From the NCBI GenBank assembly GCA_021371795.1, contig JAJFVK010000013.1, positions 124,001-188,000 on the forward strand: a stretch of 64,000 nucleotides of DNA. The letters run 5' to 3'. Source of the DNA: Planctomycetaceae bacterium (lineage in GTDB: Bacteria > Planctomycetota > Phycisphaerae > Sedimentisphaerales > UBA12454). Of the stretch, positions 47,758-54,052 are shown piece by piece (position 1 is the first letter of the stretch; every line of letters begins with the position of its first letter). Made by a program: the position numbers and the translations under genes. Under the pieces are notes generated by a model. It did not search any database. It was not told the DNA's origin and saw only the letters and a list, made by a program, of their open reading frames with translations.

Positions 47758-48324
47758 CTATGCCGCATAGTGCAGCATGCTCAAACTATGCCTGCGAAGT
47801 TTTTTGGCGACGGATTTAGAGTTGGCGACATACTTATCTAATTCGTTCCAAAATTTTCTGCTGTGGTTTTTAATTTTTGTATGAACTAACTCGTGCAGCA
47901 GAACATAATCCTGCAATTCTTCAGGCAGCCTGACAAGATTTATATTCAGATTAATATTATTACTGCCGCTACAGCTGCCCCAGCGGGTTTTCTGATTCCG
48001 GACGGAAACCTTATTGTATGTGAAGCTATATTTATCCGCCAAAAACTTCAATTGAGATGTCAGGAAAATTTTGGCCTGTGTCTTATTTATTTTCGGCAAA
48101 TCTATTTTCGCCGGCGTTTGCTTTTCGATTTCCTTCATTTTCAAAATTGCTTTTTTTACCCATTCGATATTCGAATAGAGAAACTCCTGCGCTTTTCCCT
48201 GCGATACCCTTGCCGGGAAAGTTACCCTTATCGGCTTGAAAGGCTTTATGGAAACAGTCAATCGCCTTGCACGAAAAGATTTATTAAAAACGACCGGCGT
48301 CTCCAGACCTGTTATATATTCCAT
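47758..48324 (-). CDS. YgjP-like zinc metallopeptidase (DUF45/M48 type)
   Basis: 188 residues. The metal site is LLHELVHTKIKNHSRKFW (HExxH plus downstream His), preceded by RWGSCSGSNNINLN, the DUF45 signature. A cytosolic SprT/WSS1-like peptidase fold; substrate not known. It stands alone between two long non-coding regions. Confidence 0.85.
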   Translation of the reverse strand: MEYITGLETPVVFNKSFRARRLTVSIKPFKPIRVTFPARVSQGKAQEFLYSNIEWVKKAILKMKEIEKQTPAKIDLPKINKTQAKIFLTSQLKFLADKYSFTYNKVSVRNQKTRWGSCSGSNNINLNINLVRLPEELQDYVLLHELVHTKIKNHSRKFWNELDKYVANSKSVAKKLRRHSLSMLHYAA

Positions 48325-48446
48325 TAATATAATCCCGTTAAAACCTGTTTTTCGACATTTTACATCAAATTAGCAATTCCGCAAGCCGAACGAATAAATT
48401 TAACAAAATTCTAACTTGCTAATTATAACTTTGTTTCGTACAGTAT

Positions 48447-48549
48447 AAAAGAGCGGAATAAGCCCTTGCGATGGACGTTCGCCAATTCAGGCTGCCGGAA
48501 GCTTCCGGCTTGGCGTTACGCCGGCATCGCAGGCAGGCCGCTTTTTTTT
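48447..48549 (+). ncRNA. Candidate structured small RNA with its own terminator
   Basis: About 100 bases fold into nested helices: AAAAGAGCGG (48447-48456) with CCGCTTTTTT (48538-48547); GCC..TGCGATG (48462-48473) with CATCGCAGGC (48525-48534); CGCCAA (48480-48485) with TTGGCG (48510-48515); apical palindrome GCCGGAAGCTTCCGGC (48494-48509). GGCG/CGCC (48512-48522) offers an alternative pairing. Eight T follow. No ORF begins within 400 bases downstream, so an independent RNA is more likely than a leader. Not a family I recognise. Confidence 0.55.
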
Positions 48550-48955
48550 GCGCTGTAAAAAAATCCCCACATATTAATTAATCAACCTTTTAAATTCCGT
48601 AATTTTTCAGGCCTCGCCAATACTGGTAAAGGTATTTTTATCAGACCATTTTAAACCTCAAAATTCCTGTAAATTCCGGTACTTTCCGATATTAACGCAA
48701 TACTAAAATGGGTCGAAATAGGAACAACGGACATGAGAAATAGAATCATGAAAGTTCATAAAATATGGGAAATCACAGCAGCTTGATTATTAACTATGTC
48801 ACAAAAAATCATTTACAAGTATCCGATAGCTCAAACTGTTATTCGTAAAACTGTTAGCCCTGTCAGGTAAAAGTTAAGAGACGGTTTGTGCTATTTATTT
48901 AATTTGCTGGAACGTTTTCGGCATTGATTAACTGTTTGTTTTGAAGGGGAATAAA
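48550..48955. other. Intergenic region before cheW, nothing recognised
   Basis: About 400 AT-rich bases without a credible ORF or repeat; it presumably holds the cheW promoter. Confidence 0.4.
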
Positions 48956-49465
48956 ATGGCAAATATTGCAGCTCAAGCAGAGCAGTCGCACAAGGCTCTG
49001 CAGGACAAAGAAGGTAAATACCTTACCTTCGCACTGGGCAGCGAAGAATACGGCCTGGAAATCCTGAAAGTCCGTGAAATCATCGGATATATGGATATTA
49101 CAGCCGTCCCTCAAACACCTTCTTATGTGAAAGGTGTCATCAATCTGCGCGGACAGGTCATCCCTGTCGTTGATTTACGCACAAAGTTCGGAATGGAAAC
49201 CGCACAAGTAACGGAAGAAACTTGTATTATCGTCGTCGAAATACATCAGGATGGACGTAAATTCAGTACCGGTATTGTAGTTGACCATGTCCAGGAAGTG
49301 CTTGATATAGATGGTGAAAACATCGAAGAAGCACCACAATTCGGCGTTTCAGTCAACACTGATTTCATTCTCGGCATTGGCAAAGTCGGCGAATCTGTAA
49401 AGATTCTCTTAGACATTGACAAAGTACTGGGCAGTAGTGAGCTTGAAGGTATCGGACAAGCATAG
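48956..49465 (+). CDS. cheW: Chemotaxis adaptor CheW
   Basis: 169 residues. Start at the ATG at 48956, with AAGGGGA six bases upstream. The CheW fold is marked by GSEEYGLEILKVREII, the PSYVKGVINLRGQVIPVVDLR block and a C-terminal GVSVNTDFILGIGKV stretch. It links chemoreceptors to CheA. The MCP gene follows 75 bases later; no cheA is in the window. Confidence 0.95.
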   Translation: MANIAAQAEQSHKALQDKEGKYLTFALGSEEYGLEILKVREIIGYMDITAVPQTPSYVKGVINLRGQVIPVVDLRTKFGMETAQVTEETCIIVVEIHQDGRKFSTGIVVDHVQEVLDIDGENIEEAPQFGVSVNTDFILGIGKVGESVKILLDIDKVLGSSELEGIGQA

Positions 49466-51685: not shown

Positions 51686-54052
51686 ATGAACACGCCGCTT
51701 TCCGAAAACGAATTAAACGCAATAAACGCATACTGGCGGGCAGCAAATTATCTTGCAGTCGGACAAATCTATTTATATGACAACCCCCTGCTTAAAGAAC
51801 CGCTGAAAATCGACCACATCAAGCCTCGCCTGCTCGGCCATTGGGGAACAACACCGGGTCTTAATTTTATCTATGTTCACCTCAACCGCATTATCAAAAA
51901 ATACGACCTTGATATGATTTATATCGCCGGCCCCGGCCACGGAGGCCCTGCTATGGCGGCCAACACGTATCTGGAAGGAACATACACTGAATTCTATCCG
52001 GGCATTTCGCAGGACGCTGAAGGAATGAAAAAATTCTTCAGGCAGTTCTCTTTCCCCGGCGGAATACCCTCGCACGCAGCGCCTGACATTCCAGGCTCAA
52101 TTCACGAAGGCGGCGAATTAGGCTATTCTGTCTCGCACGCATTCGGAGCGGCTTTCGATAATCCCGATTTGATTGTCGCAGCAGTTGTCGGCGACGGCGA
52201 AGCTGAAACCGGCCCCCTTGCGACCGCGTGGCATTCGAATAAATTTCTTAATCCTGTTACTGACGGAGCCGTTCTGCCGATTCTGCATTTAAACGGTTAT
52301 AAAATCGCCAATCCAACTGTTCTGGCAAGAATCCCGCAGCAGGAATTAGACGATTTATTCAGGGGTTACGGCTACAAACCATATCTCGTTGAAGGCAGCG
52401 AACCGACAGAGATGCACCAAAAAATGGCGGAAACGCTCGATACGATAACTTCAGAAATAAAAGAAATTCAGCACAACGCTCGCAACAACAATAAGACGGA
52501 ACGCCCAACTTGGCCGATGATAATTTTTAAAACTCCAAAGGGCTGGACTGGCCCAAAGGAAGTTGACGGTAAAAAAACCGAAGGCTCATGGCGCTCGCAT
52601 CAGGTGCCCTTCTCACAAATGTCGGAAAAACCGGAGCATGTTACATTACTTGAAAACTGGATGAAGAGCTACAAGCAGTGGGAACTTTTCGACGATAACG
52701 GTAAATTCAAGGCTGAATTCGCAGAACTTGCGCCAAAAGGCAACCGCAGAATGGGGGCTAATCCGCACGCCAACGGCGGACTGCTGCTGAAAGATTTAAG
52801 AATGCCCGATTTCCGCGATTATGCGGTCAATATCAACGAGCCGGGAAGTATGAGAGCCGAATCGACCAGAGTGCTCGGGTATCTCCTGCGCGATATAATG
52901 AAACTCAACAGCGAAAATAAAAATTTCAGAGTATTCGGCCCTGATGAAACCGCGTCTAACAGACTCGATGCGTTATTTGAAGTTACAGGCCGAACGTGGA
53001 TGGGGCAAACACTGCCCGAAGACGATGAAAAACTCTCGGCGGCCGGCAGAGTAATGGAAATTCTTAGCGAACATACCTGTCAGGGCTGGCTTGAAGCATA
53101 TCTGCTGACCGGTAGACACGGCTTCTTCTCCTGCTACGAAGCGTTTATTCATCTTATTGACTCAATGTTCAATCAGCACGCAAAATGGCTCAAAGTTACG
53201 CGGGACGAAATCCCGTGGCGGCGGCCGGTTGCTTCGCTGAATTATCTTTTGACTTCGCACGTCTGGCGGCAGGATCATAATGGTTTTAGCCATCAGGACC
53301 CGGGCTTTATAGACCACGTCGTAAATAAAAAAGCCGACGTTGTGCGAGTTTATTTCCCGCCGGATGCCAATACCCTGCTGTCCGTTGCCGACCACTGCCT
53401 GCGGAGCAGAAATTACATCAACGTTATCGTCGCCGGCAAACAGCCGGAACTCCAATGGCTGAATATGGATCAGGCTGTTAAGCATTGCACGTATGGAATC
53501 GGTATCTGGGAATGGGCAAGCACAGACAGGGGAACTGAACCGGATGTCGTAATGGCCTGTGCCGGCGATGTACCGACGGTTGAGACGATGGCAGCCGTGA
53601 AAATTCTGCGGCAATATGCGCCGGATTTAAAAATCAGAGTCGTCAACATTGTCGATTTAATGACGCTTCAGCCGAACGAGGAACATCCGCACGGCCTGAC
53701 AAATAAAGATTTCGACGGCATATTTACCGCTGATAAACCTGTTATCTTCGCTTATCACGGCTATCCGATGCTTATACATCGTTTGACGTACCGACGAACA
53801 AACCATAAAAATATCCACGTCAGGGGCTACAAGGAAGAAGGTACAACAACAACGCCTTTCGATATGCTCGTACGAAACGATCTGGATAGATTCCATCTTG
53901 CGATAGACGCTTTTGACAGAGTGCCAAAACTGGCCAATATCGCCGCTTACGCCAAACAGGAACTACAGTACAAAATAATCGACCATAAAAATTATATTTT
54001 AAAGCATGGTATCGATATGCCTGAAATCAGAGATTGGAAATGGAAGGACTAA
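51686..54052 (+). CDS. xfp: Xylulose-5-phosphate/fructose-6-phosphate phosphoketolase
   Basis: 788 residues, usual size. [26 protein letters not shown], the thiamine diphosphate motif [14 protein letters not shown] and [10 protein letters not shown] are typical. It splits xylulose-5-P or fructose-6-P with phosphate into acetyl-phosphate and a sugar phosphate, giving ATP and acetate. It is monocistronic with its own promoter and AAGGA ribosome-binding site. It fits a fermenting organism and also consumes inorganic phosphate. Confidence 0.97.

Follow-up and report, generated by a model that had tools for sequence, protein, structure and literature searches.

The window analysed here is a 64-kb stretch of the planctomycete genome G000 (2.85 Mb, 98% complete). 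Judged by the relatives of its cheW, the genome falls near Sedimentisphaerales/Phycisphaerae within the Planctomycetota. Between a divergently transcribed gene for a YgjP-like metallopeptidase and cheW, it contains a predicted small RNA gene on the plus strand (48447-48549), the sequence of which folds into four nested stems followed by U8. The cheW gene is followed by a methyl-accepting chemotaxis gene, and a phosphoketolase gene (XFP, window positions 51686-54052) lies downstream of the chemotaxis receptor gene. The features of the locus are as follows.

47758-48324, minus strand: YgjP-like metallopeptidase gene, divergent from the RNA (gene calls)
48416-48421, plus strand: putative -35 element TTGCTA, weak (4/6), aligned with TTGACA of the homologue L009 (sequence)
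48439-48444, plus strand: putative -10 element TACAGT, weak (4/6), after a 17-nt spacer (from the homologue)
48447-48549, plus strand: predicted small RNA gene (fold, single copy, homologue at L009:1494-1595)
48447-48456, plus strand: 5' arm of P1, the terminator stem, AAAAGAGCGG (minimum free energy, MFE, fold)
48458-48461, plus strand: conserved internal-loop AUAA, of which UAA is also found in DUF3800-V RNAs (sequence comparison)
48462-48473, plus strand: 5' arm of P2, GCC+TGCGATG with a CU bulge (fold; compensatory changes in L009)
48476-48485, plus strand: 5' arm of P3, CGT+CGCCAA (fold, covariation analysis)
48486-48493, plus strand: conserved unpaired segment UUCAGGCU, UUUAGGCU in the homologue (comparison with L009)
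48494-48509, plus strand: apical hairpin P4, GCCGGA-AGCU-UCCGGC (fold; one compensatory change in L009)
48510-48520, plus strand: 3' arm of P3, TTGGCG..ACG; P3 has 9 bp and is interrupted
48522-48526, plus strand: CGGCA motif, internal loop into P2, present in nearly all DUF3800-V-type planctomycete RNAs
48525-48534, plus strand: 3' arm of P2, CATCGCA+GGC; P2 has 10 bp and a 2-nt bulge
48538-48547, plus strand: 3' arm of P1, CCGCTTTTTT, pairing with 48447-48456 (10 bp including one G-U)
48538-48549, plus strand: predicted intrinsic terminator, the 3' arm of P1 plus U8 (sequence, fold)
48542-48549, plus strand: run of eight T (sequence)
48550-48553, plus strand: GCGC directly behind the T-run, common to most members of the group
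48956-49465, plus strand: cheW, also the downstream gene at the homologous locus (gene calls, homologue locus)

Folding recovers P1 to P4 at the positions given by an earlier sequence-only reading of this DNA, which had also described the terminal run of eight T. The MFE of segment 48440-48555 is -50.2 kcal/mol, against -39.1 +/- 3.7 kcal/mol for shuffled sequences (z -3.0), and none of 200 shuffles is as stable as the native fold. The P4 arms (GCCGGA, 48494-48499, and TCCGGC, 48504-48509) form six base pairs in the MFE fold, the full palindrome comprising eight, and the upper domain as a whole amounts to 43 nt. Rfam 15 returns no credible match to the element, even at E<=10, and the only match of the genome to SRP RNA (RF00169) is located elsewhere (C2:71105-71202). 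That reading had named many copies as the sign of a mere palindromic repeat; the search of the 2.85-Mb genome found one copy only, and the element is thus not a dispersed palindromic repeat.

A full homologue is present in one of 59 related genomes, G001, which belongs to the same genus as G000 (L009:1494-1595; 79% identity, E 2e-14); its assembly is 8% contaminated, and the close copies thus compared number two, from one genus. The homologue also lies upstream of cheW, and the preceding gene is, by inspection, rsmE-like instead of ygjP-like. The cheW genes of the two loci are 81% identical at the DNA level while the spacer between RNA and cheW is mostly unalignable, which puts the conservation of the RNA about on a par with that of coding sequence. 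With the gap placed in the bulge, 23 of 24 pairs of P2-P4 are kept and five compensatory double changes are found (permutation P 2e-5); the plain MAFFT alignment gives 22 of 23 pairs and four such changes (permutation P 3e-4). One broken pair is thereby set against four to five compensatory double changes, those of P2 in L009 being G-C to U-A and G-C to A-U. Changes affect 5 of 32 unpaired and 13 of 48 paired positions, the loops being better conserved than the stems. The predicted structure of the G001 copy is much alike, but its P1 is bulged and forms with the register shifted, and its overall fold is weaker, with no extra stability over shuffles (z 0.06), so that the argument for an RNA rests on covariation and not on stability. 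Compensatory changes in relatives were what the sequence-only reading had proposed to look for, and their presence in this single close homologue supports, at the level of sequence comparison, a function as RNA. That the element might be no more than an intrinsic terminator or a palindromic repeat, devoid of any function of its own, agrees with the strong terminator at its end, but is barely credible, as no plus-strand gene runs into it (the ygjP-like gene is divergent), it occurs once in the genome, and P2-P4 and the loops are conserved, with covariation.

Upstream of P1, the homologue exhibits a near-perfect sigma-70 promoter (TTGACA-17-TATCAT) that ends about 7 bases before P1. The window counterpart, TTGCTA-17-TACAGT, is weaker and is not listed by a consensus promoter scan. 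The RNA is predicted to start near 48450, and the putative promoter and the terminator together delimit a predicted transcript some 100 nt long; we infer from these signals that the RNA is transcribed. Within the RNA, an ATG frame of 36 codons is uninterrupted in the window, and in G001 it meets a stop after 6 codons. Conservation of a reading frame was not seen, and a coding gene was rejected on these grounds. The element thus has the attributes of a free trans-acting sRNA: a terminator in both genomes, a promoter that is strong in L009 and weak in the window, and no conserved coding frame. Together with the structure, the covariation in a relative and the single copy, they are in line with the free small RNA put forward by the sequence-only reading.

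The U-tract is followed by 406 nt before the cheW start (48956), in keeping with the earlier remark that no ORF follows closely. An alternative stem that could act as a switch had also been suggested, and the pairing of GGCG (48512-48515) with CGCC (48519-48522) is indeed possible in the window; its counterpart in G001, UCGU against CGCC, is unpaired. The loss of this stem in G001 and the distance to cheW make a free small RNA a better fit than a cheW switch. If the element were a cis-acting attenuator or riboswitch, it would be part of a long cheW leader and would stop transcription until P1 was opened by a ligand or factor; its position upstream of cheW, in the same orientation in both genomes, is in favour of this reading. 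We regard it as improbable given the 406-nt distance, the proposed alternative stem that is not kept in L009 and the absence of any visible antiterminator; a mutually exclusive stem that would govern the following gene was not found. Moreover, the other cheW loci searched are devoid of the RNA, its relatives adjoin unrelated genes, and a separate, conserved motif lies in the cheW leader closer to the gene. The predicted duplex energy of the RNA with the cheW start ranks 7th among the 59 starts of the window, which is nothing special, and pairing with the cheW start was dropped.

The leader motif, CCCTGTCAG, is located at window positions 48857-48867 and is found 84-128 nt before the ATG of many planctomycete cheW genes (the window, L009, L013, L025, L030, L106, L107, L109 and L110). 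It also occurs at -190 in L014, and the flanking leader sequence is otherwise diverged. It may represent a second conserved element of the cheW leader. In G001, two close cheW copies are arranged in tandem about 3 kb apart (C140:26409-29874; L112 and L106), with the RNA upstream of the first copy only.

A covariance model built from the window element and L009 (R1) was searched in 161 genomes of the order, and its two best extra matches are L085 (26.6 bits) and L086 in genome G098. L085 is located inside an ATP-grasp-like coding gene and was discarded as a false positive. L086, the best credible new match, is a member of the DUF3800-V family (RF02964), and a DUF3800 gene adjoins it in tail-to-tail orientation. 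A second model (R2) was built from seven planctomycete DUF3800-V-type RNAs, with the window element and L009 left out. In the 64-kb window, R2 places the element on top (E 0.0014; next match E 0.06), and in the whole of G000 it is the sole match (21.3 bits, E 0.06, the calibration of the model being rough). The matched parts are P1, the UAA loop, P2 and CGGCA, at both ends of the model, with 41-46 upper positions skipped; L009 alone scores 12.8 bits, which is not significant and no higher than for ordinary terminators. The basal platform of RF02964 (terminator stem, UAA loop, P2) is thus recognized with moderate significance. A profile of the 3' half based on sequence alone, likewise built without the two sequences, ranks L009 first (E 2e-4) and the window element third (E 3e-4) in 616 kb, and these two are the only strong matches that span CGGCA and P2, the others covering the terminator alone. 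The ranking is conservative, since the searched set included terminators chosen by a third model.

This third model (R3), made of the basal platform with the upper part cut out, found mostly short ordinary terminators and did not span the 43-nt upper part; its counts were therefore not used, except for one match, L135, that R2 confirms. Searching many genomes loses weak matches, and the window element itself was lost in the R3 run. The tail TTTTTTTATGCGC also follows short terminators of the ordinary kind in many genomes of the order (L134, L136, L141, L142, L145, L148 and L150), probably by chance because the model that selected them rewards this tail. The 5' motif recurs exactly on a viral contig (L095) that shows no further likeness to the element and no R1 match, and its recurrence there was taken as chance; a plasmid search gave no match.

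Like DUF3800-V RNAs, the window element is of the free sRNA type of about 100 nt, with its own putative promoter ending at P1, a GCGG/CCGC terminator stem, the UAA internal loop, P2 with CCUGCAAUG/CAUUGCAGG, CGGCA, a T-run and a GCGC tail. In contrast, its upper domain is devoid of the GUGUUCCC...GGC motif of RF02964, its basal loops contain one to two extra bases, and its genome has no detectable DUF3800 gene. The element stays below the RF02964 gathering threshold (37.4 bits), the Rfam model giving no match to it at E<=10, and a family search for RF02964 found no member in G000. As judged from the sequences, the link to DUF3800-V is therefore moderate. The earlier description as a candidate new structured RNA stands as to structure and to its place outside Rfam; "new" has to be qualified, as the basal half matches RF02964 and relatives of the same genus. 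It could be argued that the sRNA is unrelated to DUF3800-V and that its lower half merely converged with it, as GC-rich terminator stems of this lineage may do: many ordinary terminators of the order carry GCGG..CCGCTTTTTTT, those retrieved by R3 often also ATGCGC, and the whole-genome R2 value is only 0.06. Such convergence appears rather unlikely, since the window element and L009 match across CGGCA and P2 in the 3' profile, unlike other strong matches, and since length, UAA loop and upper-domain size agree as well. In addition, none of 12 unselected terminators of the window carries GCGC after its T-run, which is thus no general feature of the terminators of this lineage.

Further RNAs of this kind, beyond those recognized by Rfam, are reported by R2 within the genus (E 1.7e-10 to 0.08), at L117:1501-1600 and L123:1501-1593 in G003, L118:1501-1598 in G006 and L122:1501-1604 in G002. 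L122 is a second copy, so that G002 and G003 possess two such RNAs each. L135:1501-1599, in G026 from another family, is a further one, confirmed by R2, the Rfam scan covering the other four. An R2 match in G001, L120, has no U-tract and was taken as chance. These orphan RNAs have in common a TATAAT-type promoter that ends at P1, the sequence GAGCGGGUAA or a close variant, P2, CCGCTTTTTTT with ATGCGC and, in most of them, CGGCA. Their upper domains measure 36-46 nt and differ among themselves. P2 covaries across twelve combined sequences, a count that yields no formal probability as the sequences are related. The neighbouring genes, named by inspection, are unrelated (tadA, folP, folC, a solute-binding protein gene and a gene with ankyrin repeats), and none of the orphans, L135 included, has a DUF3800 gene as neighbour. 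The same-genus orphans (L122, L117, L123 and L118) thus resemble the window element in platform, promoter position, terminator, tail and upper-domain length, and none adjoins a DUF3800 gene; they differ from it in having their own upper-domain sequence and neighbours, and a basal sequence nearer to DUF3800-V.

Regarding the DUF3800 protein, one study predicted an RNase H fold for a DUF3800 domain and noted a link to putative non-coding RNAs (PMC10910872). At five loci (L096, L097, L099, L100 and L101), the DUF3800 gene lies tail to tail with a DUF3800-V RNA, an arrangement in which gene and RNA may share one two-way terminator. We know of no established function for the DUF3800-associated RNAs. 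A search with PF12686, which does pick up the partner genes of RF02964 copies, reports no DUF3800 gene anywhere in G000, G001, G002 and G003. Among the 13 genomes of the family, only G006 and G010 contain DUF3800 genes above the cut-off, none with such an RNA nearby. With no detectable DUF3800 gene in G000, the orphan RNA would work without DUF3800 or with another protein.

Taken together, the element is likely an orphan, diverged relative of the DUF3800-V-type sRNAs, free-standing, about 100 nt long, with its own promoter and most likely acting in trans. RNA polymerase would start at the base of P1 from a sigma-70-type promoter belonging to the RNA, and transcription would stop at P1 and U8. 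The product would be a long imperfect hairpin in which a conserved basal platform (P1, the UAA internal loop, P2 and CGGCA) carries a separate 43-nt upper domain. In some DUF3800-V-type members, the RNA and a DUF3800 gene are arranged tail to tail; the window element and several others of the genus stand alone. The platform may bind a protein and the upper hairpin may provide specificity, the whole most likely being a trans-acting RNA-protein particle or regulator; action in trans is favoured because the neighbours of the relatives vary and cheW is 406 nt away.

A broader and more tentative proposal is that planctomycetes keep a modular class of sRNAs in which the protein-binding platform stays constant and the upper hairpins can be exchanged; the DUF3800-linked RNAs would be only one branch of it, and orphans such as the window element would use another protein. 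That DUF3800-free genomes keep copies with compensatory changes would point to a DUF3800-independent job or to a different partner protein, and a comparison of genomes that have the DUF3800 gene with those that lack it could thereby put the RNA-protein link to the test.
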